DNA from: a virus
IMG/VR virus record: IMGVR_UViG_3300027396_000020
Span: 19,817-83,816 of that record
Length of the DNA: 64,000 bases
Direction: 5' to 3' (one strand)
Shown: positions 42,801 through 64,000 of the stretch, piece by piece
Layout of the letters: each line of letters starts with the position of its first letter
How positions within the stretch are numbered: position 1 is the stretch's first letter
The notes under the pieces: generated by a model
What the model was told of the DNA's origin: nothing
Seen by the model: the letters and a program-made list of their open reading frames with translations, nothing else
Database searches by the model: none
Program-made: the position numbers and the translations under genes

Positions 42801-43274
42801 CTAAGAGACACATTTGGTGTTAACTTAGATTTAATCAAATCAATCAGTGATGAGATTATATATCATCCGGTAAAGTACAAGGTATTGTTTGGCGCCAAGG
42901 CAAACTCAAAGTTACAGGCAGTTTTTAAAATAGTTAAGAACTCAAACAAGACAGTTAACGATAACGATATAAAAGTAAGAGTAGTGTCAGCTATAAATGA
43001 TTTCTTTAGTGTTAACAACTGGGACTTTGGTGATCGTTTTTATCTCAGTGAGTTGATAACTTATATTTTGACAGCCACTGCTCCGGATATTAGCAACTTG
43101 GTTATCGTACCCAAGCAAGCAGACCAATCATTTGGTAGTTTGTTTGAGATACAAGCAGCACCGGATGAAATATTTGTTAACGGTGCTACGGTTGACGATA
43201 TAGAAATAGTAACAGCTATCACAGCCGCAGAAATCGGCGCAAACCCATCAACAATAGTTAATACAACAGCGTGA
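39864..43274 (+). CDS. gp6: Baseplate wedge protein gp6
   Basis: A 1136-residue wedge protein that dimerises to form the iris-like inner ring of the baseplate. The N-terminus is characteristic: QDWKRIYQTFKNADFKSYDF, LRQNYPEDFNDYIESSEYMA, IDAVAFLGQSLAFRVDLASR and RRDSVLRLARMLSYNAKRNV (the gp6/J-like start). The C-terminal part keeps the KVLFGAKANSKLQAVFKIVK and DRFYLSELITYILTATAPDI blocks. T4 gp6 is 660 residues, so this version is nearly twice as long, with additional beta-rich insertions in the middle. It lies between gp25 and the giant gene, as in T4. Confidence 0.93.
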   Translation: MTTTSRQNNLILNQDWKRIYQTFKNADFKSYDFENLRRVIITYLRQNYPEDFNDYIESSEYMALIDAVAFLGQSLAFRVDLASRENFIDLAERRDSVLRLARMLSYNAKRNVPAQGLLKFTSVSTTESLLDGNGKNLANQIIQWNDPTNTNWLEQFIVVLNAAMADNTQFGRSQGTSTIQGIPTEQYRFKTTSADVPIYSYSKTVSGRGMSFEIVSTSFSNSTVFYEEAPVPANQLGFIYKNDGKGPASPNTGFFLMFKQGSLEFADFTVDIPTTNETISVGAQNINNDDVWLFSLSSAGVQQNQWTKVSDLLGNNIIYNSIDKNIRNIYSVVTKENDQVDLEFSDGVYGNLPQGSFRFYYRVSNGLSYTIYPNEMKGISIAIPYYNKQGVRHTITVNLGLQYTVTSSASSESTDSIRANAPALFYTQNRMITGEDYNLAPLATSQNILKIKSINRTSSGISRNFEVIDASGKYSSVNVFADDGYIYKETSEKNILFKYASTIDIINFIRNTIEPTFASTDVYNFYLTKFDRTPYTFTDSNYIWKQVTSTGNKTTGYFVSGIDGSLLKVGTYTTSVLKSAAPGALLRFVAPAGKSFRKGKLVTTNTSDPLQTSYIWSEVVSIVGDGTNAGRGVLTSGLGPVTFNTTIPSGAIADRFVPRFSTSLTDALELEMINQISQNFNFGLRYDIDTASWKVITAGNLNLSDVYNSGKAGDTTNAGLDASWYIAFVRQADQYFIRIRVMHYIFGSVQQNRFYFDGQQKVYNSETGTVIKDKVKILGINTGGDLLTSIKQDIDFEIDETIKFDDGYESTKEIKIAFADSDNNGVIDNPDAFEKIVGLDSLHNFLFFKKTTDASGATYYDIIDNSDELIMIWPKETTAVISNYNNGQLVYFYDSAEDVVKRVDKTTNTFVLESSYKAAVGRDRLKFQYLHNANSERRIDPSSSNIIDLFILTRAYDTSYRNYLAGYISTEPTPPNNDSLRDTFGVNLDLIKSISDEIIYHPVKYKVLFGAKANSKLQAVFKIVKNSNKTVNDNDIKVRVVSAINDFFSVNNWDFGDRFYLSELITYILTATAPDISNLVIVPKQADQSFGSLFEIQAAPDEIFVNGATVDDIEIVTAITAAEIGANPSTIVNTTA

Positions 43275-49200: not shown

Positions 49201-52200
49201 TCACCTGATTGGACCGTATGGAGATTCTCAGAAGCTGCAAACCTCAAGGTCGTTGATGCTGTAAAATCTGGGTTAACTGTTACTGTTACAATGAATCGCC
49301 GCCATGGGTTGACTGTGGGCGACATTGTAGGCTTTAGATCGATTCCTAACCTAACAGGATTTTATAAGATTACTGAAGTCAGTGATATGACTATTAGCGT
49401 TACTGTTACTCCTGCAGCACAGGATCCGGTTATTGACGGCAGCACAGTTACCAATGTAGGATTGTTTACTGAAGTTAGATTTGATACCTACGACATGGTT
49501 GATCCTGAAAAAGTAGCTTTGTGGAAAGAAGGATCTACTCTATGGGTTGACGATAATGGTAGCGGGCTGTGGGAAGTTATTAGAAAAACCAAACAATATT
49601 CTTTTGGAGAAATCAGTGAATATGGTTTAACATCACCACTGAGAACTGGTGCAGCAGTCTTTTATGATAATAGATCAAAAGAATCTATAGTTGGTATTCC
49701 GGGATCGGGCTATGCCGTTGTTTATTCTGATATTAACGGTGCATTGACTCCTAAGCAGATATTATCACCGCTGATCGAGTTTAGAACATTATCAATAGGA
49801 TCATTCGGTCAGGCCATTACAGTAAGTCCAGACGGTCAATGGTTGGCTATTGGCGTTCCCTTAGCCAGTGGTGTTAAAAATACATATCTAGGACCATTTA
49901 GTTCTACAAAGAGTTATGCTCTTGAGGATGTTGTCCTTTATGATGATATTTTATGGACACCTAACAAGTTTGTGTCACCTGATGGCAGCACTTTAACATT
50001 TAACACAGAAGATTGGGACCGAGCAACAAACATTGAAGCCTATGGAGAAGCCAGGGGAGATGGATTCTCAGAACAGGGAATGATTGTTCTTTATACAAGG
50101 ACATCTCAAGGTTGGGATTATTATAAAACTTTTGCAAGCCCAAGACCGGCAGCCGGGGAACTATTTGGTTCATCTATTAAGATGGCCAAGAGCGGTACAT
50201 CATATTCGATGATAGTGTCAGCTCCTGGATCTTTAGATGGCATCGGTCGAGTTTACGTATACAGTCATAACGGAACTGGATGGGAGATTGGCGAGATTCT
50301 TCCATCTGAACTAGCATTGAACAACTCACTAGTTCAAGATAGATCTACTATGGCTCACGGTATACTTAACAGTGATGTTGAAATGCTAAAGATAGGAGAC
50401 CAGTATGGCTCGGCGATAGCCATGAGCTATACAGGTGATATTATTGCAGTTGGCGCTCCGTTTAGTGATGGACAGGTTTTTGATCAGTACAGAGGTGTGT
50501 GGAATTCTACTACAGAATACTTCGAAGGTGAAGTAGTACAGTATGAAGGATTGTACTATAAGTTAGCTCCAGACACATCAGATTCCACATATACTAATAC
50601 CGGAACCAATCCGACAACATTGCCGTGGGTGTCTATTGGCGATAGTACGATGAATCCATCTGGAAAAGTTTTTGTTTACAAAAAAGAATCAACCGGTTAC
50701 AGATTAGTGCAGACTATTGGTGCAGATAATCTTTCTGAGTACAGCGATCTTTCTAAAGTAGAAACAATAAATGTAGGCGATCAGTTCGGTGCATCATTGG
50801 ATTTAGATTGGTCAGGAACTACATTGGTTATCGCTAGTCCGCTGGGAGATATAAATCTACAGAATCAAGGTTCGGCCTATGTATTAAGATTAACAAACAA
50901 TATTTTTAGAGTAAAACAAAAACTAGAAAGTTTTGAAGATTATCCTAATGAATATTTTGGACAGAGCATCTGTATAAGTGGAAATACAGAAAAAATTGTT
51001 ATTGGAGCAAAGAATACTCCTTATCATGAGTCGGTTACATTCTTTAGCAAGGATGAAGGAACTACTACCTTCGATCACGGAGCTACAAGATTTAGTAAAG
51101 ATTATGGTTTTGCCGGAGCAGTTTACGTATTCGAGAGAAAAGCAGATGTTTATTTCTTAGCTGAAAAACTATCTGCTGATCTGTCATCGAACGAATCTTT
51201 TGGTTACAGCGTGTATTGTACACCAGATAACATTTTAGTTGGTTCTCCTGATTATTATTCTAACGTATTAAATCAAAAGACCGGTCATGTGAGACTGTTC
51301 AAGAAACTAGAAAATGTAAATTCTTGGGAGATCCTATCGCAAAGAAGCTTAGTCGTTGATATAGAAAAGTTAAAGAGCATTTCTCTTTACGATGATGTAA
51401 ACAATAAAAAAATACAAGATCTGGATATAATCGATCCAGCTAAGGGTAAAATATTAAACGAAGCAGAACAAGAGTTAACTTTCAAAGTTCCTTACGATCC
51501 TGCTGTGTATTCTATTGGTACAGACTTACAAACAGTTATACCATCGCAAGAATGGACTGATCATCATGTAGGAAAACTATGGTGGAATACATCTACAGCT
51601 AAGTGGATGTACTACGAACAAGGTGATACATCTTATAGAGTAGGAAACTGGAGTAGACAAGTTCCTGGTTCTAGCATCGATGTTTATGAATGGGTAAAGA
51701 CCAAACTGTTGCCTAGTGAGTGGGCCGCATTAGCAGATACAAACAACGGAATAGCCAACGGTATCTCAGGACAACCTTTATATCCTAACGACGATGTCTA
51801 TTCTCAACGTATTCTATATAATGCGTCGACTGGTGCGGCAACAGAAACGTACTACTATTACTGGGTAAAAAATAAAACTATTTTACCTACTAATGTTATA
51901 GGCAGAAATATATCAGCATCAACAGTGGCTTCATATATTAATAACCCTATTGGTTCGGGAACAGCATTTGTAGGCATAGCAGCAGAAAATACTCTTTTGT
52001 TGTATAACTTCAAATCGATTATTTCAACTGATTATGCTTTGTTGAATATAGAGTATAAGAAAGATACTAGTTCGTTAAACCCTGTACACAACGAATACCA
52101 GTTGATTAGAGAAGGGTCAACTCAAGGTGTTCCGTCTTATAAACTTGAAACCAAATGGATCGACAGTCTTGTAGGATACGATTCTGTTGGTAATAGAGTT

Positions 52201-55200
52201 CCTGATCCGGGACTGCCTGCGAAATTAAGATACGGAATCGAGTTTAGACCTAGACAAGGTATGTTTATTAACCGATTAACTGCACTAAGATTAACAGTCG
52301 ATAATCTGAATGCATTCTTGTCAACGTATCCGTTGACAGATTCATTGGACTTTACGTACCTAAATCTAGTCGATCCTGCCCCTAACAGCCAACTAAATCT
52401 CTATGATGTAGCAGTTGACACAGATATCGATCTTGAAACCGTAAGCACTACTCGTGTAGAACCTGCGATTTTGCAAGTGAATATCATAAACGGACAGGTA
52501 GATACTATTGATATAGTAAGCAAAGGTTTTGGTTACAAAGTAGTTCCACCAGTAATCATTGACGGAGATGGTGAACTAGCAGCAGCCGAAGCAACTATAG
52601 ATTCACAAGGCAGAATAATATCTGTTACGGTTACAACTAAAGGTAGAAAGTACAGTTATGCTTCTGCATCCATTAGACCTTTCTCAGTGTTGGTTAACAA
52701 AGATGCTACAGCCAATAACTTCTGGGGCATATATGCCTACAACAGTGATAAGAAGACATTCTATCGCACAAGAACTCAGGCTTATGATACAACTAGATAT
52801 TGGAGTTTACAAGACTGGTGGTTGACCGGTTATTCATCAGTTGACAGAATAGTCAAAGAGATTCCTAATATTTCATATCTAGGGTTTGTTACCACCTATG
52901 TAGGCGATATGGTACGTATAAAAGAATACGCATCTGGCGGTTGGGCTGTATTGTTAAAAACTTCTGAAGGTAGCTCGAATCCGTCAGATGACTGGATGCT
53001 AGTAGGAAGAGAAAAAGGAACAGTTTTATTAGAACCTTCTCTATACGATCCAACAGTTGGCGGAATAGGTTATGATAATAACAAGTCATACGATACTGCA
53101 TTTTATGATCTTGAAAACGCTAAAGAACTAAGAAATATTCTACGTGCAGTAAAAGATAATGCCTATAATCTAGGTTTCGGCGACCAATGGAGTAGTTTGT
53201 TCTTTGTAGCAGTTCGATATGTATTAACAGAACAGAAATATGTTGATTGGATGTTCAAGACTAGTCTTGTTACTGCCACACATAATGTTGGAGCTTTTGA
53301 GCAGAAGTTAAACTATAAAAATGATAACCTTGCGAGCTTCCAAGATTATATCAACGAAGTTAAACCATATAGAACAACAGTGAGAGAATACATTAGTAGG
53401 TATAATACCCTAGAAACAACAGGACTATCTACTTCTGATTTTGACCTTCCACCTGCATATAATGTATCTGAAGGAAAAATAACATCAGTAACAGAAACCC
53501 AAGAAACGATTCAGAGATATCCATGGAAATGGTGGCTCGATAATCATAGATATTCTATAACTGAGATTAGGTTGTCTAATCCGGGATCAGAATATAATTC
53601 ACCGCCTACAGTTATTATTGACGGCGACGGAACCGGCGCAACTGCAAAAGCCTACATCTCAAACGGATCTGTGTCTGGTGTTGAGTTGTTAACTGCTGGC
53701 TCAGGATACACAAGAGCTTCTATAAAACTAGTTGGCGGCAACGGAAACAGCACCGATATAGCAACAGCAATACCGGTACTTGGTGATTCTAAAACTAGGA
53801 CATTTAATCTTTCATTGAGATTTGATCGAGTTAATAAAGAATCTTCTTATTCTACTTTTACAAAGACAGATACTTTTGTTGCTGAAGGAAACAATGCTGT
53901 TTTTAAACTCAGCTATGCACCATCTAACAATAAGAATAAGATCAACATTTTAAGAAATGGTAATGTTGTTTATAAAGATGAATATTCTGTAAAGATTTAT
54001 AAAGAAGGTATAGACAACTACTCTTTATTAAAAGGATCGGTAATCTTTGTTTCAGCTCCAAACAAAGGTGACAATATCGTTATTACCTACGAAAAGAACG
54101 ATGAGTTATTGTATGCTGTTGACAGGATAAACAAATATTATCTAACAGAATCATCATCGCCTACTGCTTCTGGAATGCTAGGAAAAGAACTTAATCAGTT
54201 AATGACCGGTCTAGACTTTGGTGGCGTCCAAGTACAAGGAACAACATTTGAAGTCACTGGTGGTTGGGATGCTCTACCTTGGTTTTCTGACAGCTGGGAC
54301 AGTGTAGAATCATCAAATGACATTTATTTTAGGGCAGATGGAAGTACGGCATCGTATACTTTTGATGCACCTCCTGCTGCTGGCCAAATTTATAACATCT
54401 ATATTAAGAGAAATGGTGACACACAGTTTATAAGAATAGACGATCCATATTTTAACCCTGCGCAAGATAGTTCTATGCAGACTAATCCTCATGCAGAAAT
54501 ACCTACCTTTATAGGGGATGGATCGACTTCTGTGATAATGCTAACTCCTTATTTGAGTTTAAATGCAGGTGATACATTGGTATTCAGACAAATCGAAAGT
54601 GATGGTTCTGTTACTATTAATGATTCCAACATTTTAGACACAAAGATAAGTGGTGGCACATTAGCTGCTATGAGCGGAGCATATTCAACTGCTTCAGGTA
54701 CTGCCGCAGAAGAAATAGTTCTAGAGGGTGGTAAATTTATAAGTCCTGAACAAGTTCCTGCACCTGAAGAAAATGTTCCTGGACAGGTACTAGATAGTCT
54801 TTCTATAAAAGTGTTTAATAACACAAGGTCGGGAGCCACTCCTCTTAACCACAGGACTATCTATTCAGATGGAATAACTTTAACTTATAAGATAGGACAA
54901 AAAATAATCGAAAATAGCTCTTTGTTAGTCTATATCAATAAGATTAAGAAAACAGAAACTATAGATTATTCTATCGATTATAAAGATCAAGAAATAACTT
55001 TAAACAGCCTAGCACCTGCGGGAAATATTATTGAAATTATTTCTTTAGGTATTGGCGGCCACAATCTTTTAGATTATCAAGAGTTTGTAGCTGATGGTGA
55101 TACTAGTTTATTTTTAACTGATGCAAACTATACAGATACTACTTCAATATTTGTAACAGTAAATGGAATCTATAAGGAAACAGCATTCGTCAACAGTACA

Positions 55201-56859
55201 GGAGTTGTTGATTCTCAAAATAGAACATTGGTCCAGTTTGGTATAAAACCAACTCTAGGTGATGTAATATCTATACTTGTTTTAGGTTCTGAAAACGGTA
55301 ATGTATTAGACGGATACGGTGTAGTAAGGATCAATCAACAAGTGTTTAACTATGAAGGAAGTACAAGAACCTTTAGTTTAAATCATTCTGTAACTGAAGA
55401 TCCTAAACTAGTATCTCAGATCGGTGCCAACTTTAATAATGTTCTTAACGCATCGGCCGCGTCATCGATGATAGTCGAAGTTAACGGAAAAGCATTAAAG
55501 GGACCCGATAGTGTTTATTTTGTCTATGATGGAGTAACTAAAGATTTTGTTCTAGGAGAAGATCCTTACACCGGCCCGGGTGCTGTACTAACTAGCAACA
55601 TTTCTGTTTATATTAACGATGAACTTAAGACTTTTATTCAAGATTATGTCTATGATGGTACTTCTAAAACTATTACTATCACAAAATCATTGACTAAAGG
55701 TGATGTTATTAAAATAGAAACAAATTTTATATCTGATTATAAAATAGAAAACAATAGTCTAGTTTTATTAGATACAATATCATTAGTTGACGGTGACACT
55801 ATTGGTGTTACATGGTTCAACGAATATACTTCGATGGATCTAATCTCAGACGAATATACTGGTGGTAAGGTACAATACCGACTCTCTCACAGCCCTATAT
55901 CAGTAAGCTATGTATGGGTTTATAAAAATGGAGATAGATTGTCACAAGATGTTGATTATTATGTAGATCAAGATCGATCATTGATATATCTCAAGAACAA
56001 GACTACTGAAGATGATAATATAAAAATTCTTTTATTTGGGTCTCAGATCTATAGATTACCTAGTGGATATGAAATCTATAAAGACATGTTAAATGTCTAC
56101 CACTTCAAGAGGTATTCACAAGGAATGGATGTTGTACTGGCAAAAGATTTGAACTATTTTGACACCTCACTAGAAGTTACAGATTCTACTGAACTTTCAG
56201 ATCCTATTCCTTCTAGAAATATTCCTGGAATAATAACCATAAACAACGAGCGTATTGAGTATCTATCTAAGGTTGGAAATGTTCTTTCTAAACTCAGAAG
56301 AGGAAGCCTAGGAACATCGATAGCTACATTGCATGCCAAGGGCAGCTATGTCGTTGATGTAGGTATCAAGGAAACAGTTCCTTATAACGAAACGCAAGAT
56401 CGTACAGATTTTACCAGCGATGGGAAATCAGACGATTCTACTATAGGAACAGCTCAAACAATCGGACCGTTAGAGTTTACACCTAGCAAAGGAACTAGAT
56501 CAATATGGTATAAAAATACCATCCCATCAGATTTTGGGCCTTGTGATCAGATAGAAGTATTTGTAGGCGGCCGCAGACTGCGTAAAGATCCCTTACAGGT
56601 ATTTGATGAAACTCTAGGAGCCGAAGGATCCGGAAAATACAAGACTCTTGAAGCAGAGTTTAGTGTTGACGGAACCACCCCTTACATAAGACTAACCGAA
56701 ACAGTTCCAGCAAATACGCTGATAACTGTCATCAGGAAACTAGGTAGAACTTGGTATGATCGAGGCGAAAATACCGTTACTAGAGGCGTTACGCTGCTAG
56801 AAAACACAACTCCGATCGCTAGATTCATAGCAGAAAAGACTACTAAAATACCTGAATAA
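43282..56859 (+). CDS. Giant 4,525-aa baseplate/adhesin protein in the gp7 position
   Basis: One open frame of 13.6 kb following gp6. T4 has gp7 (1,032 residues, wedge initiator) here. The start (MADKIYPQSQLPIRKTKDLL, later HYSWNPPIDWDKFINFREYY) and the WWRGVYNWFYDTDRPHRCPW block at ~1150 look like a baseplate protein. It then carries many added modules: CBM-like domains (W..Y..GDIV.Y...W) near 220, 1460, 1720, 2206 and 2405; six FG-GAP-like propeller blades (e.g. YGSAIAMSYTGDIIAVGAP) at ~2174-2650; two PP.VIIDGDG repeats near 3086 and 3436; and at least five C-terminal ~90-residue beta domains (VYINDELK..DY.YD.....ITKSLTKGD). No signal peptide. It probably combines baseplate structure with host binding; gp7 homology is inferred from position. 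Confidence 0.8.
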   Translation: MADKIYPQSQLPIRKTKDLLPNVFQTPANNKFMAAVVDPLVQPGVLQKTAGYVGRRYGKTYRGSDIYLDTDNTLRSRYQVEPGVIFRENETIQNFYDYLDVKNQIKFFGNEVDRDYLTTSQEHYSWNPPIDWDKFINFREYYWQPSGPPPLQIYGQSAKITSTYKVELGLGSSWVFSPDGVTNNPKITLYRGQTYKFKINAPSEAFVIRTNPDLGSLVYNPNLGYKAGSVVLYNDQLWRAKVDVLPDGSTINVDSQDWELISINDYNSIFDYNDGIKNNKIENGTLTFTVPYDSPDVLFYQSVVNLDRQGQFVIQSIVENTYIDVTKDVLGKSQYKSSNGIEFTNGLVVEFMGKVSPEKYATDTWLVEGVGKAITLTRFSDLIVPVLSTDVPEVLFDNAPFDAEPFDDASAYPGQLDYITISKNSQDSNPWSRYNRWFHRSVLEYAYTQRGQDFPADENLRAKRPIIEFRSNIQLYNHCSIAKTQVDYIDTFTDDIFSKIEGSSGYNVDGEFLFEGARVLVVADTDSLANNKIYTVHFIKFGNNTQITLKEATDSQSVVGQGVLVRRGKSNSGLMYHFTGESWVKSQAKTTVNQSPLFDVYDENYVSFSDPETYPISSFNGNPLVSYKIGNGLTDSQLGFSLSYLNIDNVGDIQFNWDFGSETVNYTIDRQALSKKVAVGYFKDNSTGGYDNGWTLTDLTYIQPLIDSVTIQEATNTIKLTTIDWAQVTTEPVINFYLNGDKLTDNPWTRNKDTFTFQDSFSVNDIISVKIVTDLEPVTGYYEIPVGLERNPLNSPLTTFTYGQAIDHIVSAVEFDTEFQGNIPGKSNLRDLDGYQDNAKRFLTHSGLTPVAIALLCDKTNNIIKSLQYAKRSYTEWKSNFITKALEIEYNESIPDFVDDIINELSRTKNGDSPFSDSDMIGSGAYSTISYTVEDTGIKTFALSAPFSLTTLSRKAVYVYLNDNQLLHGRDYTFNDTFGFVNISLDLNENDLVEIREYVSTAHCFVPPTPTSLGLYKKYTPSKFLDDTYKTPTEVIQGHDGSITVAYGDFRDDLLLEIEYRIYNNIKQEYDHTIFDIDAVLGGYYGNAIFNKDDLDNIVEQEFLKWINNTNIDYTNNTYFTEYETFTYSYTNMTDPTGKQNLPGWWRGVYNWFYDTDRPHRCPWEILGFSQKPIWWEKYYGPAPYTSGNLILWEDIRDGIIREGDRAGTYLRYARPTILSHLPVDVEGKLLSPLESGLANDFVLINNRGPFKLGDISPVEYAWRSSSEFPFAITIALCLLKPFEFIGDSFDRSQVKLNNLGQTVNVNTNLPVTLNDIKVPKTGIQQGAGLVVYLIDYAKSRGVSLDLVENKIKNIDVNLTTRLGGFVDKAQQKYLLDSKNPKSTSTGVYIPAENYDIIFNVSAPISTISYSGVIIEKTLNGWYVTGYDDLHPYFPYYEPLASQGDPLISVGGVSETFSDWTLGTSYANGVIVRNNNTYYRSLITHTDSSADDLNNKTIWKKLPKLPLVGAVEAFKRRNFNFSAVSKMSYGTEINEIQDIVNFLLGYEAYLKSRGFVFENYDPDNQVSQDWTTSCKEFMFWTRHNWAIGSIITLSPASQKVYIKTPVGVADNLLDGFYDYQVLKSDGKPLQPQYINVDRQFQEITVETTNTTEGIYYIRLYYVLKEHVTVFSDKTVFSDIIYDKPTGYRQQRIKSLGFRTTDWYGDYTSPGFLFDNVDIAVWQPFVDYRLGDIVAYQQYYWVSQVNQEGSESFNTNLWTKLDTVPEKQLLSNFDYKIKQFDDYFNVESQGIGETQRELARHTVGYQSREYLQNLAEDPVTQFQLYQGFIREKGTINSVKKVFDKISRSSESALVLDEEWAFRVGRFGGVDQLKEYEIKIEKSEFPLNPQPLLFVNSIPSVSSDRYYRVIGSDFTISPTPYTTNINPLSLEAEPENTAGYVATSQVDFALYNADAILGIDISTVSEGAHFWLTFYSPDWTVWRFSEAANLKVVDAVKSGLTVTVTMNRRHGLTVGDIVGFRSIPNLTGFYKITEVSDMTISVTVTPAAQDPVIDGSTVTNVGLFTEVRFDTYDMVDPEKVALWKEGSTLWVDDNGSGLWEVIRKTKQYSFGEISEYGLTSPLRTGAAVFYDNRSKESIVGIPGSGYAVVYSDINGALTPKQILSPLIEFRTLSIGSFGQAITVSPDGQWLAIGVPLASGVKNTYLGPFSSTKSYALEDVVLYDDILWTPNKFVSPDGSTLTFNTEDWDRATNIEAYGEARGDGFSEQGMIVLYTRTSQGWDYYKTFASPRPAAGELFGSSIKMAKSGTSYSMIVSAPGSLDGIGRVYVYSHNGTGWEIGEILPSELALNNSLVQDRSTMAHGILNSDVEMLKIGDQYGSAIAMSYTGDIIAVGAPFSDGQVFDQYRGVWNSTTEYFEGEVVQYEGLYYKLAPDTSDSTYTNTGTNPTTLPWVSIGDSTMNPSGKVFVYKKESTGYRLVQTIGADNLSEYSDLSKVETINVGDQFGASLDLDWSGTTLVIASPLGDINLQNQGSAYVLRLTNNIFRVKQKLESFEDYPNEYFGQSICISGNTEKIVIGAKNTPYHESVTFFSKDEGTTTFDHGATRFSKDYGFAGAVYVFERKADVYFLAEKLSADLSSNESFGYSVYCTPDNILVGSPDYYSNVLNQKTGHVRLFKKLENVNSWEILSQRSLVVDIEKLKSISLYDDVNNKKIQDLDIIDPAKGKILNEAEQELTFKVPYDPAVYSIGTDLQTVIPSQEWTDHHVGKLWWNTSTAKWMYYEQGDTSYRVGNWSRQVPGSSIDVYEWVKTKLLPSEWAALADTNNGIANGISGQPLYPNDDVYSQRILYNASTGAATETYYYYWVKNKTILPTNVIGRNISASTVASYINNPIGSGTAFVGIAAENTLLLYNFKSIISTDYALLNIEYKKDTSSLNPVHNEYQLIREGSTQGVPSYKLETKWIDSLVGYDSVGNRVPDPGLPAKLRYGIEFRPRQGMFINRLTALRLTVDNLNAFLSTYPLTDSLDFTYLNLVDPAPNSQLNLYDVAVDTDIDLETVSTTRVEPAILQVNIINGQVDTIDIVSKGFGYKVVPPVIIDGDGELAAAEATIDSQGRIISVTVTTKGRKYSYASASIRPFSVLVNKDATANNFWGIYAYNSDKKTFYRTRTQAYDTTRYWSLQDWWLTGYSSVDRIVKEIPNISYLGFVTTYVGDMVRIKEYASGGWAVLLKTSEGSSNPSDDWMLVGREKGTVLLEPSLYDPTVGGIGYDNNKSYDTAFYDLENAKELRNILRAVKDNAYNLGFGDQWSSLFFVAVRYVLTEQKYVDWMFKTSLVTATHNVGAFEQKLNYKNDNLASFQDYINEVKPYRTTVREYISRYNTLETTGLSTSDFDLPPAYNVSEGKITSVTETQETIQRYPWKWWLDNHRYSITEIRLSNPGSEYNSPPTVIIDGDGTGATAKAYISNGSVSGVELLTAGSGYTRASIKLVGGNGNSTDIATAIPVLGDSKTRTFNLSLRFDRVNKESSYSTFTKTDTFVAEGNNAVFKLSYAPSNNKNKINILRNGNVVYKDEYSVKIYKEGIDNYSLLKGSVIFVSAPNKGDNIVITYEKNDELLYAVDRINKYYLTESSSPTASGMLGKELNQLMTGLDFGGVQVQGTTFEVTGGWDALPWFSDSWDSVESSNDIYFRADGSTASYTFDAPPAAGQIYNIYIKRNGDTQFIRIDDPYFNPAQDSSMQTNPHAEIPTFIGDGSTSVIMLTPYLSLNAGDTLVFRQIESDGSVTINDSNILDTKISGGTLAAMSGAYSTASGTAAEEIVLEGGKFISPEQVPAPEENVPGQVLDSLSIKVFNNTRSGATPLNHRTIYSDGITLTYKIGQKIIENSSLLVYINKIKKTETIDYSIDYKDQEITLNSLAPAGNIIEIISLGIGGHNLLDYQEFVADGDTSLFLTDANYTDTTSIFVTVNGIYKETAFVNSTGVVDSQNRTLVQFGIKPTLGDVISILVLGSENGNVLDGYGVVRINQQVFNYEGSTRTFSLNHSVTEDPKLVSQIGANFNNVLNASAASSMIVEVNGKALKGPDSVYFVYDGVTKDFVLGEDPYTGPGAVLTSNISVYINDELKTFIQDYVYDGTSKTITITKSLTKGDVIKIETNFISDYKIENNSLVLLDTISLVDGDTIGVTWFNEYTSMDLISDEYTGGKVQYRLSHSPISVSYVWVYKNGDRLSQDVDYYVDQDRSLIYLKNKTTEDDNIKILLFGSQIYRLPSGYEIYKDMLNVYHFKRYSQGMDVVLAKDLNYFDTSLEVTDSTELSDPIPSRNIPGIITINNERIEYLSKVGNVLSKLRRGSLGTSIATLHAKGSYVVDVGIKETVPYNETQDRTDFTSDGKSDDSTIGTAQTIGPLEFTPSKGTRSIWYKNTIPSDFGPCDQIEVFVGGRRLRKDPLQVFDETLGAEGSGKYKTLEAEFSVDGTTPYIRLTETVPANTLITVIRKLGRTWYDRGENTVTRGVTLLENTTPIARFIAEKTTKIPE

Positions 56860-56867: not shown

Positions 56868-57527
56868 ATGGAACCACAAGAGACTAACATGACCGAAAAC
56901 CAACAGCAAAAAACTGATGCTCAGCCCAACGAAATTGGAGGTTTCCATTTTGAAGGGCATATCAAGATCTATGATCCGCAAAACGGCGAGATATTCGTAG
57001 ATAAGCGTAATGCTATTCATTATGAAAATATGTCTGTAGCGATGGTACAGAGTTTATCAAACCAGGGATTGGGTACTATCTATCAAATGGATTTTGGTAA
57101 CGGCGGAACAACCGTCGATCCTACAGGACTCATAACTTATCTTACTCCGAATACTATCGGTGTAAACTCTAGTTTATACAGCAAAACCTATCAAAAAATA
57201 GTAGATCAGCAAGCAGCAATCAACTCAGATCCTGTTCGTAATAAGATGGAAATACGTCATATTAGTGGAGCCACTTACTCGGATATTGTTGTTAGTTGTT
57301 TATTAGATTACGGCGAACCTACTGATCAGGAAGCATTTGACAACTCTGTGGATTTAAGCGGAAACTTTGTTTTTGACGAACTTGGTCTAAGAAGTTACGA
57401 TCCTAGCGGAACAGGTAAACTTCTTACACACGTGGTATTTCACCCCGTACAAAAATCTTTGAATAGGTTATTACAGATTGATTATACAATACGTATTCAG
57501 AGTCTAACTGGATTCACTGGAGCTTAA
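56868..57527 (+). CDS. Baseplate-associated structural protein (219 aa)
   Basis: A 219-residue protein. After a short hydrophilic arm, GFHFEGHIKIYDPQNGEIF and DKRNAIHYENMSVAMVQSLS lead into a beta-rich body ending FDELGLRSYDPSG, LLTHVVFHPVQKSLNR and LLQIDYTIRI. T4 has gp8 near here, but I see no convincing gp8 motif. ATG 56868 has no Shine-Dalgarno sequence and lies 5 bases after a late box, so a leaderless message is possible. The alternative start ATG 56889 has a weak AAGAG ahead of it. It lies between the giant protein and the fibre cluster. Confidence 0.7.
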   Translation: MEPQETNMTENQQQKTDAQPNEIGGFHFEGHIKIYDPQNGEIFVDKRNAIHYENMSVAMVQSLSNQGLGTIYQMDFGNGGTTVDPTGLITYLTPNTIGVNSSLYSKTYQKIVDQQAAINSDPVRNKMEIRHISGATYSDIVVSCLLDYGEPTDQEAFDNSVDLSGNFVFDELGLRSYDPSGTGKLLTHVVFHPVQKSLNRLLQIDYTIRIQSLTGFTGA

Positions 57528-57530
57528 TAA

Positions 57531-59675
57531 ATGCCATATAATGTAACCAGTACTGATAAAACAAAGATTATCACTGTCTATGACAATACGTCAGACACTT
57601 CTAGCACCAGTCTAACATTTCCTGGTAGAAATGTAACAGGATACGGTCAAACTATAGCAGAAAACTTTCTACATCTACTAGAAAATTTTGCCGCTGGAAC
57701 CGAACCAGTTAACCCTACAGTGGGTCAGGTTTGGTACGATACAGTAAATGCACAGCTCAAACTTTACGATGGTGATTGGAAAGCAGCTTCAGGAATACAA
57801 AAAGGTCCTTCTGAACCAAGTGTAGAAACAGCCAAAGTTGGTGAGTTATGGATTGACACAACCAATCAACAGTTAAGAATCTTCACAGGTGCTAGATGGA
57901 TTCTTGTAGGTCCTGCAGAAAGTTCAGTTGATGGTCTAAGATACGGACCGGCTGTAGAAGCTATATCAGATAGCGACAACGTAACAAGAAATATTTTAGT
58001 TTTCTATATCGCTGATGTACCTATCATCATTGTAAGTAAAGATAGTTTTACACCAAAAGTAAACATTCCAGGGTTTAGTCCGACAGCAATAAATCCCGTA
58101 CCTATACATTCTGGTATCAACATCCATATCCCAGATGCAACAACACAAGATAAATTTCAAGGCGGGTACATTCCTAAACTTTTTGGAACAGCAAAAAATG
58201 CGGACGCACTAAATGTCGGTGGTACAGAAGTTGCCGCCGGTAAGTTTTTAAGATCGGATATTTCTAATACAACAGATTATGGGATCATTATTCGAAGCAA
58301 TGAAGGTTTAACTCTAGGTGTTAACAGTGATTTCCGTATATCTAATGACAATACATCAGCATCGATTTACAACTCTAAATCGGGAAGCTCTTTAGATTTA
58401 CAAACTAACAAAGACGGAATACCAAACACAGTCCTTCGAGTTAAAGGAACGTCTGTAGGTGTTAATGTTTTAGCGCCAGAAGAAGCTCTTGATATTGACG
58501 GTAACCTACAAATAACCGGTTCAGTTATTATTAATAATACCACACAGAGTACTAATCTTTCAAACGGAAGTTTAAGAACACTTGGTGGCATTTCTGTTAC
58601 AAAGAATGTACTGATCGGTACTGATCTAACAGTATCAGGAACATCCCAGTTAGGTGGAGTAGTTCCATCGGCAACAGAAACATTTGACCTGGGCTCGACA
58701 AGCAAGCGTTGGAAAACTGTGAGAGCAAAAACTATCGTTGCTGATGAAATACAAGGTATCTTGAATGGTAACATTAGTGGTAACGCCAACACAGCAACCA
58801 GTTTGAGAACAGCAACAACTTTTAAACTTGAAGGAGACGTCATTAGTCCTTCGATCTCTTTTGATGGGCAAGTGGGGGGTTCTACAAAAATATTTGTTAC
58901 ATCGCTGACATCAAATATTATCAGTAGTAAAGATTTTCCTAATCCTAACTATTCTAACGCTGAGGATTTAGTATTAACCTATAGACCTAGCTTGGCAGGA
59001 CAAGGTGGAGCTAGCGGTCTTCTCAAACAGACTAGAAATACTTTTATCGGAGATCTAGGTGTTCCTATAGGGACTATGTTCCCTTATGCAGGACAACTTC
59101 CACCATACGGATATTTGTTCTGCGATGGATCAGAAGTAGAGCGTGTAAAATATCCAGATCTTTATGACATCATTGGAACGACTTATAATGGATCCACAGC
59201 ACTAGTTGGTGTAGGAACATTTAGACTTCCGGATATGCGAGGACGCTTTGCTCTTGGCAGAGACAATATGGATAATGCTCAGAGTGTTCCAAACTCATTG
59301 GGCGGGTTTACTGATGCAGGCGGCGGCACGGCTGGTCGAGTACCTGACATCAAGGCACAAAGCATCGGCGGCTCTGCTGGTCAGAGTTCAGTTACATTAG
59401 ACCTGTCAAATCTTCCAGATCACGAACATTCTATGTTAGTAAATGGAATACAATATTCTGCAGTCAGAGTGGATACTGCTATTAACTCTCCTGCAACAAC
59501 TGGCCTTGGACCGAACGTACCTGGTGGCGCACAGTATCTTAATACTACAGGAGGCATTAAGAAACCAACAGTTGATTATACATTAAAACAGGCAGTTGGT
59601 ATAATGAATCCATATCTAACCGTGAACTACATTATTAGATCTGGTCCTCCGGCATTTACAACAACTACAACCTAA
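57531..59675 (+). CDS. Tail fibre/collar protein 1 of a four-member family (714 aa)
   Basis: A 714-residue fibre. The N-terminal ~220 residues (RNVTGYGQTIAENFLHLLEN, PTVGQVWYDT, LKLYDG, later SKDSFTPKVNIPGF) are shared with the next three genes and probably attach to the baseplate. The middle is fibre-shaft-like (AKNADALNVGGTEVAAGKFL, FDLGSTSKRWKTVRAK). From ~512 it carries a phage tail-collar domain as in T4 gp12: GTMFPYAGQLPPYGYLFCDG, then TYNGSTALVGVGTFRLPDMR. GGAG lies 8 bases before the ATG. Host receptor binding is expected for the family. Confidence 0.88.
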   Translation: MPYNVTSTDKTKIITVYDNTSDTSSTSLTFPGRNVTGYGQTIAENFLHLLENFAAGTEPVNPTVGQVWYDTVNAQLKLYDGDWKAASGIQKGPSEPSVETAKVGELWIDTTNQQLRIFTGARWILVGPAESSVDGLRYGPAVEAISDSDNVTRNILVFYIADVPIIIVSKDSFTPKVNIPGFSPTAINPVPIHSGINIHIPDATTQDKFQGGYIPKLFGTAKNADALNVGGTEVAAGKFLRSDISNTTDYGIIIRSNEGLTLGVNSDFRISNDNTSASIYNSKSGSSLDLQTNKDGIPNTVLRVKGTSVGVNVLAPEEALDIDGNLQITGSVIINNTTQSTNLSNGSLRTLGGISVTKNVLIGTDLTVSGTSQLGGVVPSATETFDLGSTSKRWKTVRAKTIVADEIQGILNGNISGNANTATSLRTATTFKLEGDVISPSISFDGQVGGSTKIFVTSLTSNIISSKDFPNPNYSNAEDLVLTYRPSLAGQGGASGLLKQTRNTFIGDLGVPIGTMFPYAGQLPPYGYLFCDGSEVERVKYPDLYDIIGTTYNGSTALVGVGTFRLPDMRGRFALGRDNMDNAQSVPNSLGGFTDAGGGTAGRVPDIKAQSIGGSAGQSSVTLDLSNLPDHEHSMLVNGIQYSAVRVDTAINSPATTGLGPNVPGGAQYLNTTGGIKKPTVDYTLKQAVGIMNPYLTVNYIIRSGPPAFTTTTT

Positions 59676-59687
59676 TAGGGCAAGAAC

Positions 59688-61571
59688 ATGGCGTATCAAG
59701 TTAACAGAACAGACGGATCAATAGTAGCTGTAGTTGCAGACGGTCAAATCGATACATTATCGACTGATCTTACTTTGATCGGAAAAAACTACAGCGGCTT
59801 TGGAGAAGCCCTTAATGAAAATTTAATAAAACTTCTAGAACATTTTTCAGGAAGTACAAAACCATCACATCCTATACGAGGACAGATATGGTTTGATACC
59901 GCAGAAGGAAAACTAAAGGTTTATACAGGAACTAGTTTTGTTCCCGTGAGCTCTGCTACTATTTCGAGTACCCAACCTTCGACGTTGGGTGTTGGTGATC
60001 TTTGGTTCAATGATGTAGACAAACAACTATTTTTCTATGACGGTACTAGCACGATATTGTTAGCGCCTGCTTATTCAGTGACTCAAGGTGTAAGTGGTCT
60101 AAAGATTGAAAGTATATTAGATACATTAAATCAAACTAGAGTTATTACATCATTGTATAATAACGGAATTTTACTTGGAATATTTGCTAAAGATTCATTT
60201 ACTCCAAAGAATGCTATCACAGGGTTTTCAGGCAGCATTATTCCTGGTTTCAATGCAGGTACACTAACCGGATTAAAGTTTAATGTAACGGCCACTAATG
60301 CTGAAAACTTAAATGCAGTTCCAGCCGCTAACTATGTTCGAACAGATACTGCGAACTCGATGCAAGGGCAGTTGAAGATTACCACAGACCTTGGTATTAT
60401 TATCGGTAGTGCTGACCAAGCGACATTGCGAGTTACCAATGGTGATGTGATATTAGCTAACTCTGCATCTAATAGAGATTTGTTTATTAATGTACGTAAA
60501 GACATTACAGCCGAAACAGGCATTAGGATATCAGGATCGACAAGGACGATTGACATATATCCTAATCAACCAGAAAGCCAAGTTAATCTTGCAGGTAATC
60601 TAACTATCGCTGGCAATCTAACAGTAAATGGTGACACTACTACAGTCAACGTTTCCACAGTAACGGTTGAAGATAAAAATATTGTATTGGCAAAAACTAC
60701 GGGAGTCTTACCTACTGATGCAAATGCTGATACAGGTGGCATGATAGTACAAGGTGCTACAGCACATGTCTTTGTTTGGTCAGATGGCGGAGCAGCCGCG
60801 GGTTCAAATAGTTCAGAAGCTATTGCTGGAGGATATATTGATGCGTTGCCTGCTTTATACAGTAAAGCATGGAATAGTTCAGAACATATCAATCTCGCAG
60901 CAGGAAAATATTTTGCTATCGACGGAGTTCCAGTTTTAACAGGAAACTCGTTGGGAGCTAATATTACTAGTATTCCTGGGGTTACATCATTTGGTACACA
61001 GTCTGTAGTTAATATTGGCCCAGGTGTTCCACCTGTACCTTATATGAAGTTGGAAGATAATAGGATTTCTACACTTCAAACCGACCAAGATTTAGAGATA
61101 GCACCTAATGGGAATGGAAATATAGCCCTTCAAGGTTATCCAAGAATCACAGGTATGGGAGATCCGGTCAGTGCCCAAGATGCTGCGACTAAAGAATATA
61201 CAGATAATAGATTAGAAACACGTCCGGTAGCATTAAGTATTGATCTTTCAGATGGTAAAGATAACTCTTACATCATCACAAATATTTTGAATAACGTTGC
61301 GCCACCTGCTGATTTTAGAAATGGAGCCGTTGCTAGAGTCTTATGTAATATTCTAAGTCCTCAGTCTACTACATTAGATATAAATCCCTTGCTCAATCAG
61401 AGTACGGCTACATTTAATACTCCGACAGGTACAGCTCCAGCAGTTACAAACGTTGCTATTAACACAGCAATCATTCCGCCTAGCACAATTTCAGTTACAC
61501 GTATCGTTAAGATATTCCAGATTATCGCAAATAACTGGCAGTTTGTAGGCGACACAGTATTACCACCATAA
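59688..61571 (+). CDS. Tail fibre protein 2 of the family (627 aa)
   Basis: A 627-residue paralogue of its neighbours. The N-terminal module is conserved (LTLIGKNYSGFGEALNENLI, LLEHF, GQIWFDTAEGKLKVYTG, FAKDSFTPKNAITGFSG). The shaft contains NLTIAGNLTVNGDTTTVNVS then TVTVEDKNIVLAKTTG and GGMIVQGATAHVFVWSDGG, patterns common in phage tail fibres and also found in the minus-strand gene at 12961. The C-terminus (~500-627) is a beta-rich tip without a collar motif. The ribosome site is weak (AGGGCAAG). It differs from its neighbours mainly at the C-terminus. Confidence 0.85.
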   Translation: MAYQVNRTDGSIVAVVADGQIDTLSTDLTLIGKNYSGFGEALNENLIKLLEHFSGSTKPSHPIRGQIWFDTAEGKLKVYTGTSFVPVSSATISSTQPSTLGVGDLWFNDVDKQLFFYDGTSTILLAPAYSVTQGVSGLKIESILDTLNQTRVITSLYNNGILLGIFAKDSFTPKNAITGFSGSIIPGFNAGTLTGLKFNVTATNAENLNAVPAANYVRTDTANSMQGQLKITTDLGIIIGSADQATLRVTNGDVILANSASNRDLFINVRKDITAETGIRISGSTRTIDIYPNQPESQVNLAGNLTIAGNLTVNGDTTTVNVSTVTVEDKNIVLAKTTGVLPTDANADTGGMIVQGATAHVFVWSDGGAAAGSNSSEAIAGGYIDALPALYSKAWNSSEHINLAAGKYFAIDGVPVLTGNSLGANITSIPGVTSFGTQSVVNIGPGVPPVPYMKLEDNRISTLQTDQDLEIAPNGNGNIALQGYPRITGMGDPVSAQDAATKEYTDNRLETRPVALSIDLSDGKDNSYIITNILNNVAPPADFRNGAVARVLCNILSPQSTTLDINPLLNQSTATFNTPTGTAPAVTNVAINTAIIPPSTISVTRIVKIFQIIANNWQFVGDTVLPP

Positions 61572-61592
61572 TGAGATCGGAGCGCATAGAAC

Positions 61593-63809
61593 ATGTCTTA
61601 CATTATTAACAGATATAACGGCCAGCAGCTTGTTGTTCTACAAGATGGAACGTTAGATACAACTACTAGCATTGGGCTAGTAGGTAAAAATTATATTGGC
61701 TATGGCACACAACAGAATGAAAACTTCTTATATCTGTTAGAAAACTTTGCCAATGATAAACCGCCACTGAGACCTATTAGCGGACAAACATGGTTTGATA
61801 CATCAAATAATACCATGAATGTGTACAATGGTACTGAATGGCACCCTATTGGCGGGTCAGTGCAGGATACAGAACCAGAAAATCCAGCTCCAGGAGCTCT
61901 ATGGTTAAAGACTCCTATCAATCAACTTTATGTATTCAACGGCGATGAATGGGCATTAATAGGTCCTGAAAACGTTGAAGGCTTTGGCGCAATGACCAGA
62001 GCCATATCTACAGTATTATTTGACTCTAATAATAACCCTCATCCTGTAATAGAGCTGTTAATAGCGGGCGAAGTTATTGCTATAGTATCCGGTGCGGCCT
62101 TTACTATTAGACCTGATGTTGGTATTTTAGGTTTTAACAATCTCATTAAAGGTATCAATCTAGCAGAGTTTGTTAAACTTAAAGGGGATATAGTAGGTCT
62201 TGCCGACAGAGCTTCAAGATTAGAAACACCAAGAAAAATCAACGGAGTATTTTTTGACGGGCAGTCTGATATAACTATTACAGCATCAACACCTGGCATA
62301 CTAAAGAAAGGTAGTTATATTACAGGTAGCAACTTTAATGGTAGTACTGATATTACCTGGGGTGTAGATGCTAGTCCAAATAATGTTATAGGCAAAGTTG
62401 TTGCACGTGATACCGCAGGAAACTTTTCTGCAAACAGAATCACAGCAGATTTAACAGGTAACGTCACTGGTGATGTTACATCAACCGGCATCAGCGATTT
62501 TAATATCATTACAGCCAATGAGTTTAGAGGTGCAGTATTAACTGGTAATAGCTATACTGCAACTAGATTACAAACCGCGAGGACTATAAACGGAGTCCTC
62601 TTTGACGGTTCAGCTAATATTGATGTAACTGTTGATGCAGAAAATTTAATCGGTACTGATCTAAATACAGGCATAATCAACTCAAATCTTACCAAGGTTG
62701 GGTATCTAAATGAGTTGTCAGTTCAGGGATTTGGGGGCATTAAACTAGGTAACGGCAGCACAACCAACTTTAGCCTATTAGTTGATGGATCTATTGGTAA
62801 AATTAAAGCAAACACAGAGTTTAATCTATCGATACAAGACATAACGATTTCAGGCAGCTATCCTACATTGAGATTAACTCCTAGTGCAGTGACTATTACC
62901 GAAGGGGGTGCATCTTTACCTGCGATTATTCCTGATACAGATGGTGGTTGGTTGCTAGGAACACCTAATAAAAAGTTTGGAGACTTGTACACTGCCGATG
63001 TATACGGTACAGTTTTCCATGGTGATATTACAGGAAATGCTCCTACAGCTGATCACGCTATAAACGCAACGAATCTTGATAGCGGCCAAATCGGTTCATT
63101 GCCATATCAGTCTGGACCAGGCACCACAACGATGCTGCCGCCAGGACAACCGGGTCAGGTATTGCAGACCGCAGGTACAGGAAATCCTCCATTTTGGGGA
63201 GCAGCTTTTGTTCGTGGTATGATCATGCAATGGTATGGAGCATCTAATGCCGTACCTAGTGGATGGGGCTTGTGCGATGGTACAAACGGAACCCCAGATT
63301 TACGAAACAAGTTTGTTGTTGGTGCAGGAAGCACTTATACAATGGGTACTACAGGTGGTTCTACATCATCAACTAACAATGTAAATCTTACTTTTACAGG
63401 TACAACATCGGCAGCAGGAGCTCACAGTCACGGTGGTTCTACTGGCAGTACTGCGCTAAGTGCTGCTATGATGCCCGAACACTATCATAACTTTACAGAC
63501 GTTTACGCGATCGTCGGTGACTACGGTCTTGGAGGCAGTACAGCCTCGGCATATGATAGAAATGGAACATACATCTATCCTAGCTTTTACGCTGGAAACG
63601 CTAGTGACGGAGATCGAGACAACGGATATTATGGGTTTCCAAGCAGAACTGATACAGCAGGTGGCGGGCCAACAGGAGCTCCGCACAATCACAGCCTTAG
63701 CACTGACGGAAATCACAATCACAGTATAACAGTAACAGCAAACAGCGGAGATATTGTGGTACAAACATTACCGCCCTATGTAGCATTGTTTTACATAATG
63801 AAACTCTAA
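61593..63809 (+). CDS. Tail fibre protein 3 of the family, histidine-rich collar tip (738 aa)
   Basis: A 738-residue paralogue. The shared start (GLVGKNYIGYGTQQNENFLY, LLENF, GQTWFDT) is followed by two copies of R.INGV.FDG..DI(T/D)(I/V)T, as in the fibre at 10589. The C-terminus carries a collar-like block (MIMQWYGASNAVPSGWGLCDG at ~540, PDLRNKFVVGAG) and then four HxH clusters (HSH ~609, HYH ~630, HNH ~700, HNH ~709). In the T4 long-fibre tip HxH pairs bind iron along the needle; the same is inferred here. GGAG lies about 11 bases before the ATG. Confidence 0.88.
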   Translation: MSYIINRYNGQQLVVLQDGTLDTTTSIGLVGKNYIGYGTQQNENFLYLLENFANDKPPLRPISGQTWFDTSNNTMNVYNGTEWHPIGGSVQDTEPENPAPGALWLKTPINQLYVFNGDEWALIGPENVEGFGAMTRAISTVLFDSNNNPHPVIELLIAGEVIAIVSGAAFTIRPDVGILGFNNLIKGINLAEFVKLKGDIVGLADRASRLETPRKINGVFFDGQSDITITASTPGILKKGSYITGSNFNGSTDITWGVDASPNNVIGKVVARDTAGNFSANRITADLTGNVTGDVTSTGISDFNIITANEFRGAVLTGNSYTATRLQTARTINGVLFDGSANIDVTVDAENLIGTDLNTGIINSNLTKVGYLNELSVQGFGGIKLGNGSTTNFSLLVDGSIGKIKANTEFNLSIQDITISGSYPTLRLTPSAVTITEGGASLPAIIPDTDGGWLLGTPNKKFGDLYTADVYGTVFHGDITGNAPTADHAINATNLDSGQIGSLPYQSGPGTTTMLPPGQPGQVLQTAGTGNPPFWGAAFVRGMIMQWYGASNAVPSGWGLCDGTNGTPDLRNKFVVGAGSTYTMGTTGGSTSSTNNVNLTFTGTTSAAGAHSHGGSTGSTALSAAMMPEHYHNFTDVYAIVGDYGLGGSTASAYDRNGTYIYPSFYAGNASDGDRDNGYYGFPSRTDTAGGGPTGAPHNHSLSTDGNHNHSITVTANSGDIVVQTLPPYVALFYIMKL

Positions 63810-63815
63810 TAAATA
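63808..63815 (+). promoter_or_regulatory. Late promoter box overlapping a stop codon
   Basis: AATAAATA (7 of 8) overlaps the TAA stop of the fibre at 61593-63809. A start near 63821 gives a ~20-base leader with GGTGGAG before ATG 63841. Confidence 0.5.
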
Positions 63816-63840
63816 TAACGAATAAAGGTGGAGCAGCCCA

Positions 63841-64000
63841 ATGGCATATACAATTAACAAATTTAACGGTTCTTTTTTAGTAACCGTACAAGACGGAACC
63901 GTAGATACTAGCACAGATCTTAATCTCGTAGGTAAAAACTACGCCGGTTACGGTGCTATTGAAAACGAAAATCTTGTTTATCTTCTAGAAAACTTTTCAA
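63841..64000 (+). CDS. Tail fibre protein 4 of the family (partial, right edge)
   Basis: The first 53 codons of a further paralogue: MAYTINKFNGSFLVTVQDG, then LNLVGKNYAGYGAIENENLV and LLENF match the starts of the three genes before it. GGTGGAG lies 7 bases upstream of the ATG, and a late box lies about 26 bases upstream. The rest is outside the window, so its tip domain is unknown. Confidence 0.85.
   Translation, partial: MAYTINKFNGSFLVTVQDGTVDTSTDLNLVGKNYAGYGAIENENLVYLLENFS

Follow-up and report, generated by a model that had tools for sequence, protein, structure and literature searches.

An array of four tail-fibre paralogues in an uncultured relative of RaK2-type jumbo phages, with one exchangeable tip among constant ones

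The stretch of DNA analysed here (the window) comprises 64,000 nucleotides of IMG/VR virus record IMGVR_UViG_3300027396_000020 (positions 19,817 to 83,816). The record is a contig fragment of 83,816 bp, and its right end, which is also that of the window, cuts the last gene of an array of tail-fibre genes. The array genes are consecutive, have the same direction and are separated by short gaps. They have an N-terminal module (N-module) in common and differ in their C-terminal tips. An earlier sequence-only reading of the window had described at least four such paralogues, and this could be confirmed. Two loci from the IMG/VR scans described below (L002 and L003) show 0 mismatches to the window over 7,133 bp, and both complete gene 4, which codes for 594 aa. 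The 41-kb contig of L002, the only further-reaching contig of this virus that was scanned as a whole, contains four full modules.

All array genes are encoded on the plus strand, as is a gene directly upstream of them (56868..57527, 219 aa; PHROG 11259, E 3.8e-71), which is conserved in RaK2-type jumbo phages and is referred to as the anchor gene. We number the positions in the array as slots. Gene 1 (slot 1, 57531..59675, 714 aa) carries a tip that had been read as a gp12-like collar, and this assignment holds: residues 514-573 (59070..59249, plus strand) match the Pfam Collar domain (PF07484, E 1.2e-18) and the tip matches gp12 of phage T4 in PDB (1ocy, E 6e-4), limited to residues 508-610. 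Gene 2 (slot 2, 59688..61571, 627 aa) has a tip that had been read as a beta tip and that could not be assigned to a named family. Gene 3 (slot 3, 61593..63809, 738 aa) combines a constant N-terminal part with a tip which is exchangeable among relatives. Its N-terminal 190 residues (61593..62162, plus strand) are common to the relatives, with 45-59% identity to 17 of them. The tip (residues 538-738, 63204..63806, plus strand; tip family T7) is rich in histidine, as had been noted, with four HxH motifs, and is similar to chain 9qgo_A, a tail fibre (E 3.7e-10). The G+C content at 63201-63809, which corresponds to this tip, is 0.456, compared to 0.403 in the rest of gene 3 and 0.402 in the window; an acquired segment might look like this. 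As the same tip family is found in locus L092, an acquisition, if there was any, would not be very recent. Gene 4 (slot 4) starts at 63841 on the plus strand and is cut at the contig end (63841..64000) after 53 residues. Its tip had been left unassigned by the earlier reading; in the completed form, it belongs to family T0 and shows a weak match to Peptidase_G2, an intramolecular chaperone domain (25.8 bits at a cut-off of 25). The tips of genes 1, 2 and 4 are constant in relatives.

The N-termini of genes 2-4 show 36-43% identity to that of gene 1, and 16 columns are invariant across all four, within the 53 residues that are available for gene 4. A hidden Markov model (HMM) was seeded with the four N-termini from the window and iterated over the relatives. 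It scores 100-140 bits, far above chance, in 78 of 80 loci fetched with the anchor gene; the remaining two (L067 and L070) stop at most 100 bases past the anchor. Chance similarity of the N-termini is ruled out by the invariant columns, the HMM scores and the module tree described below. The structure model of the N-module is poor (mean predicted local distance difference test score, pLDDT, 69.4). A Foldseek search with this poor model returned no significant match, the best being TSP4 of phage CBA120 (E 0.11), and the N-module profile has no significant relative among PDB sequences.

Relatives of the array were collected from IMG/VR by scans which each retained the best 80 loci, so that frequencies do not reflect a random sample; the contigs, which reach up to 280,019 bp, are mostly fragments. 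A second scan enlarged the set to 164 loci, which were condensed to 117 groups by merging loci with an identical protein. The gene order is 1-2-3-4 in 55 groups and 1-2-4 in 22; in seven groups an extra gene (slot X) gives the order 1-2-3-X-4, and 33 groups do not show both ends of the array. When 16 metagenomic records were scanned as a whole, 13 had four full modules and three had five, none of them outside the array. A tree was computed from 246 distinct modules, leaving out L001, modules below 80 aa and duplicates. Slots 1, 2 and 3 form one clade each, while slot 4 and the slot X genes together form one clade. In the loci with five genes, slot X is assigned a place between 3 and 4, a position which is modestly supported (0.71). 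The nearest neighbour of every module belongs to its own slot. From the slot clades, the same-slot neighbours and the recurrent orders we conclude that the paralogues are old, that their order is fixed and that gene 3 is optional. The shared module, the fixed order and the old paralogy are directly supported by these data. The duplication which the sequence-only reading had proposed is thus supported, but it is an old one. Slot X was seen in L065, L072 and L075-L080; it carries tip family T4 (not to be confused with phage T4), followed by two small genes (g1 and g2, see below) in all seven deduplicated groups. Gene 3 is 1434-1533 aa long, double the usual length, in L046 (14757-19193), L052 and L056. 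Split-looking genes occur in slot 1 of L072 and L080 and in slot 2 of L159, which may reflect frameshift, decay or assembly error.

Tip families were defined from the last 200 residues by average linkage, using the 362 proteins above 400 aa that are complete at both ends and one locus per group; counts by single linkage are given alongside. An earlier clustering by single linkage over 180 residues had united the slot 2 tips with the commonest slot 3 tips. This family was discarded and the tips were reclustered because slots 2 and 3 have no direct link but were merely chained through slot X. By average linkage, one family accounts for 94 of 95 tips in slot 1 and for 90 of 91 in slot 4. The odd tips (L080 and L057) are from short genes, that of L080 being split. 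Slot 2 has three families (85, 7 and 3 of 95), both small ones being linked to the largest. In slot 3, 74 distinct proteins fall into 12 clusters (26, 24, 10, 3, 2, 2 and 2 members and five singles). Single linkage yields one group each for slots 1, 2 and 4, the two odd proteins aside, and seven groups for slot 3 (41, 24, 3, 2, 2, 1 and 1), the largest of which is chained with slot 2. Family T7, to which the window tip belongs, is present in L002 and was seen outside the window virus in L092 and L114.

A virus tree could be computed from the giant structural protein that is encoded upstream of the anchor, using 43 rows with at least 1400 aa of this protein and a classified gene 3. Of these rows, 42 have a known slot 1, 35 a known slot 4 and 40 known small genes behind slot 3. 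With labels from average linkage, this tree requires 13 or more tip changes for slot 3, two for slot 2 and none for slots 1 and 4; by single linkage there are nine changes in slot 3 and none elsewhere. Tip exchange, which had been suggested for the array in general, is therefore supported for gene 3 (13 or 9 changes) but not for genes 1, 2 and 4 (0, 0-2 and 0). The opposite possibility, that all tips are invariant and have fixed positions, describes genes 1, 2 and 4 and fails for gene 3. Both the constancy of slots 1, 2 and 4 and the tip diversity of slot 3 are direct observations.

The exchange can be followed in close relatives. Upstream of a block in gene 3, the identity of L045 and L095 is 98.7% over 9,742 bp, compared to 94.3% over 3,557 bp downstream of it; between L095 and L097, which is on the same contig as L045, identity is 95.0% over 6,106 bp downstream of the block. 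The block itself, of about 570 bp in L095 and about 730 bp in L045, is unrelated, and a conserved C-terminal stretch lies behind it. The L045 allele recurs in another contig, L173, and L178 and L184 share the L095-type block. More generally, there are 61 pairs with at least 70% identity in slot 2. In these, identity does not fall below 69% in slot 1 or below 64% in slot 4, while the slot 3 tip families differ in 27 pairs (20 by single linkage). For a residue-level count we chose 63 pairs with at least 90% identity in slot 4 and scored a replacement when at least two 30-residue windows had less than 40% identity. Replaced windows were found in 18 of 63 pairs for slot 3, in one of 47 for slot 2 and in none of six for slot 1; the 0 of 63 for slot 4 is a result of the pair choice and not a control. 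Block replacement in gene 3 is thus observed and not deduced.

Small genes accompany certain slot 3 tips. We considered as cargo all open reading frames of at least 60 aa between slots. Gaps between other slots are practically free of them (no cargo in 93 of 95 gaps between slots 1 and 2, 72 of 72 between slots 2 and 3 and 26 of 27 between slots 2 and 4), and the three exceptions resemble split array genes. Behind slot 3, the cargo of the relatives follows the tip type. Tips of family T0 have no cargo (24 of 24), and tips of T3 and two linked single tips are followed by g0 (116-126 aa) in 26 of 27 cases. The genes g1 and g2 follow T5 in 10 of 10 and T4 in 8 of 8 cases, seven of the latter behind slot X. 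Family T8 comes with g1 and g3 (2 of 2) and T13 with g5 and g6 (one case); T10 occurs once without cargo and once with g7. There is no cargo behind the single T11 tip or behind any of the three T7 tips; accordingly, the window virus has none behind gene 3, the gap to gene 4 being 31 bp (in L002). For T9, a family of two proteins, no slot lies downstream in its loci, so that cargo could not be counted. T3 and g0 change jointly in six to seven of seven independent pairs and never oppositely (p ~0.03). This pairing of tip and cargo is directly observed, and among the cargo pairings only T3 with g0 was tested with any power.

As to their function, g0 and g7 show weak similarity to the short PHROG tail fibre families 8716 and 1766. 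They have no support from Pfam or PDB, and a search with the chaperone profile against PDB sequences was non-significant. We infer that g0 and g7 may be tail fibre assembly chaperones which mature the tip. For g1, AlphaFold2 predicts the double-stranded beta-helix of 2-oxoglutarate (2OG)-Fe(II) oxygenases with high confidence (pLDDT 91.9). The model matches PolD, P4H, PHD2 and AlkB in PDB, from E 3e-7, and the HxD and distal H ligands were found by eye in 20 of 20 sequences. At the sequence level, every Pfam match stays below the cut-off and there is no significant match among PDB sequences. By its predicted fold, g1 is a 2OG-Fe(II) oxygenase.

Upstream of the array there is a set of baseplate genes, all on the plus strand. 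The protein encoded at 39373..39822 matches the baseplate wedge subunits of PHROG 43/261 (E ~3e-16) and is, by family and position, what we take to be gp25. It is followed by a gp6-like baseplate wedge protein at 39864..43274 (the name gp6 again being our assumption), which matches PHROG 10646 (E 1.7e-297) and PHROG 219 (E 1.5e-21), both baseplate wedge subunits. The giant virion structural protein (43282..56859, 4525 aa; PHROG 10938, E 4.8e-85 for residues 1-1000) lies directly 5′ of the anchor, and genes of similar size occupy this position in Atu_ph07 (13,350 bp) and Phosso (13,668 bp). The window virus also has genes for the portal and the major head protein. Away from the array, an open reading frame of at least 2476 aa (1-7428, minus strand) continues past the left window edge. 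An additional tail-fibre-like protein of 483 aa is encoded at 10592-12040 (minus strand; matches to tail fibre families of PHROG, lowest E 4e-20).

Homologues of the anchor gene were detected by tblastn in at least 60 phage records. Among the 40 matches listed, 38 are from genomes above 300 kb and the other two from records of 86 and 110 kb; the matches include Phosso, Atu_ph07, GAP32, CBB and RaK2. Judged from such protein similarities, the window virus is related to jumbo phages of the RaK2/Atu_ph07 type (Alcyoneusvirus, Mimasvirus, Polybotosvirus and kin). The RaK2-type arrangement, an anchor homologue followed by an N-module gene, is found in the window and in all five cultured genomes checked. 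Each of these has one full module in its whole genome, and the single homologues (RaK2 gp065, CBB_231, GAP32_225, Atu_ph07 AUZ94958.1 and Phosso XYS97449.1) are all located directly 3′ of the anchor. The Atu_ph07 homologue aligns with slot 4 over most of its length, near to the end, at about 25% identity, and the Phosso homologue is 52% identical to that of Atu_ph07, for which reason the slot 4-type tip (T0) may be ancestral. The homologues from RaK2, CBB and GAP32 have another, shorter C-terminal part in common. In tblastn searches of the cultured phages with genes 1 and 3, only fibre parts were matched and no record covers 80% of the query, so that these matches were not used to argue for descent.

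CBB_231 carries the N-module (E 1e-18). In the mass spectrometric analysis of the CBB virion it was identified with 12 unique peptides and 53.3% coverage, and CBB_230, the anchor homologue, with two peptides (PMC5259590). Since CBB_231 is part of the published virion proteome, the N-module protein family is represented in the virion, and by homology to CBB_231 the array proteins of the window are expected to be virion proteins too. The CBB baseplate bears six short fibres beneath it (PMC5259590); the available passages of that paper hold no statement that CBB_231 forms them.

The sequence-only reading had also considered that the virus might switch between specificities. The searches made for such a device lend it no support. 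There is no match to reverse transcriptase (PF00078) on the 83.8-kb contig, which is a fragment, and none to serine recombinase (PF00239) in five records, all of which may be fragments; tyrosine recombinases were not searched. Long repeats are missing from the array, the only inverted pair being one of 28 nt with 71% identity, and five other contigs of this virus carry the same gene 3. On present evidence we reject that the array is the target of a diversity-generating retroelement, as no reverse transcriptase was found on this contig fragment. The same applies to an invertible tail-fibre cassette of the Mu Gin or P1 Cin type, given that no serine recombinase was found in the five records and that the array has only this one inverted repeat pair. 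That one virion carries several specificities is possible.

We consider it likely that the array represents three constant baseplate fibres and one exchangeable adhesin, encoded by gene 3, and the refitting of gene 3 with new tips probably tracks changing hosts. The four genes would code for short, presumably trimeric fibres of a jumbo myovirus baseplate, and the N-module may dock each fibre to the baseplate or to the neighbouring fibre. An ancestral gene, still single in RaK2, CBB, GAP32, Atu_ph07 and Phosso, would long ago have been duplicated to give slots 1, 2 and 4, along with the optional slot 3 and, in one clade, the optional slot X. Slots 1, 2 and 4 would have become fixed parts with constant tips. 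Slot 3 would serve as an exchangeable adhesin, possibly binding the host receptor. Its tip, where needed together with the small maturation gene behind it, would be replaced between related phages via conserved flanks, these being the 5′ half of gene 3 on one side and gene 4 or the conserved C-terminal domain on the other. While the block boundaries are observed, homologous recombination is the cause that we would assume for the replacement. A more specific scenario is tentative, and we regard it as rather unlikely: slot 3 may be a dedicated plug-in site for adhesins, each tip being exchanged along with a maturation gene of its own. In some phages this gene would encode a prolyl-hydroxylase-like enzyme acting on the tip, and the specificity for the receptor or the stability of the fibre would depend on the hydroxylation made by the phage, with the three constant sister fibres keeping the baseplate working.

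Several observations weigh against three fixed fibres with one exchangeable adhesin. For the window virus and its metagenomic relatives, the evidence consists of genes only, and virion support for the module proteins comes from CBB alone; RaK2 gp065 is not named in the searched passages of two RaK2 papers. With a poor N-module model and a non-significant fold match, the docking role is unproven. As 22 of the 117 groups do without slot 3, it may be non-essential for attachment. When each locus is used only once, four of 20 close pairs show a slot 3 replacement, which indicates that swaps are not frequent. The difference of 5-6% between L045 and L095 downstream of the block leaves room for an exchange of more than the block. 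The close phages L242 and L244 differ by a block half-way along gene 3, at about residues 390-480, and not by the tip, and no exchange was seen within the window virus, whose gene 3 recurs unchanged in the five other contigs. Finally, two of the cargo pairings fall short of significance: T0 with the absence of cargo agrees on average in 4.7 of 5 independent pairs (p 0.06) and T5 with the oxygenase g1 in two of three (p 0.5).

The constancy of three tips has to be set against the view that all four fibres are receptor-binding, in a virion that is multivalent by design and trades all of its tips. Four different tips on one module would fit this, and in Ackermannviridae the receptor domains are diverse in all four tailspikes (PMC11721090). 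Some slot 3 tips even have homologues in other slots: T0, the slot 4 kind, occurs in 24 of the 74 slot 3 proteins, and T10, found in two of them, is linked to the slot 1 collar family. However, the tip families of slots 1, 2 and 4 are kept in the compared relatives, and in a tree of T0-type tips a single branch separates the 16 from slot 3 from the 42 of slot 4. Recent tip copying between slots 3 and 4 is thus unsupported, and we judge a fully multivalent array to be improbable.

Slightly less probable still is that all four are baseplate or adaptor proteins, with the host-range fibre encoded elsewhere and slot 3 varying by neutral drift of a dispensable protein. The groups without slot 3 would be consistent with this, as would the assignment of RaK2 tail fibre and spike proteins to other genes (ORF098, 527, 528 and 531-533; PMC3622015) and the additional tail-fibre-like gene at 10592-12040. 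Drift, however, cannot explain that a block is replaced between close phages with the C-terminal stretch kept, nor that T3 and g0 stay paired across independent changes, and genes 1 and 3 have tips similar to fibre tips of known structure. Assembly chimaeras, which might be suspected because every relative found with more than one module gene is a metagenomic contig, are a very improbable source of the replaced blocks and the tip diversity, as both alleles of the L045/L095 pair recur in other loci, the pairs chosen by slot 4 identity show hardly any replaced windows in slot 2 and none in slot 1, and the cargo fits the tip nearly throughout the three commonest families (26/27, 24/24 and 10/10).

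If three fibres are indeed fixed and one is free, uncultured jumbo phages separate the constant from the variable parts of their attachment apparatus, with three locked paralogues and a free one that comes with a maturation gene. Gene 3 and its partner would then be a marker for host-range change in metagenomes, and the array would amount to a natural experiment that shows the maturation gene required by each tip. The pairing of oxygenase and tip would make it testable whether phages hydroxylate their own adhesins.

The closest known systems are the cultured RaK2-type phages, whose homologues have the same N-module and the same position after the anchor. They have one full module and no exchangeable slot, in contrast to three to five modules in the metagenomic relatives. 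In phage T4, genes 9-12 occupy the place behind the wedge genes, a position similar to that of the window array. The window differs by its four paralogues, and the likeness to the Collar/gp12 tip is confined to gene 1. In Ackermannviridae, the tailspike proteins TSP1-TSP4 (as in CBA120) are encoded side by side, usually by four and up to five genes; their N-termini are conserved, whereas the receptor-binding tips differ (PMC11721090). Clusters of this type are marked by gp10-like XD branching domains in the N-termini; for the N-module of the window, neither a sequence match nor a fold match of significance was obtained. While all TSPs vary in their receptor domains and have beta-helical bodies, three of the four tips of the window array are constant: slots 1 and 4 have one family each save for one odd protein each, and slot 2 has linked families.

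Exchange of fibre modules has been described for other phages. In the Alteromonas phages A5 and V22, a fibre and its cognate chaperone are common to distant phages (PMC10579305), whereas here only the tip of one paralogue moves and the partner varies with the tip (chaperone-like, oxygenase or none). In metaviromic islands of marine phages, reported in 2014, host-recognition genes vary between close phages, and the listed genes include a Fe(II)-dependent oxygenase and tail fibre assembly proteins (PMC3909814). Those islands were defined by read recruitment across genomes, while here the variable unit is tied to one slot and shows tip-cargo pairing. Pelagimyophages have a hypervariable host recognition cluster (PMC7029224). 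The literature searched, which includes passages of the Atu_ph07 paper and excludes most subscription journals, contains no account of such an array, nor of locked paralogues that include one free slot. Fibre arrays and exchangeable fibre modules are already known; a single free slot among locked paralogues appears, within that literature, to be new.

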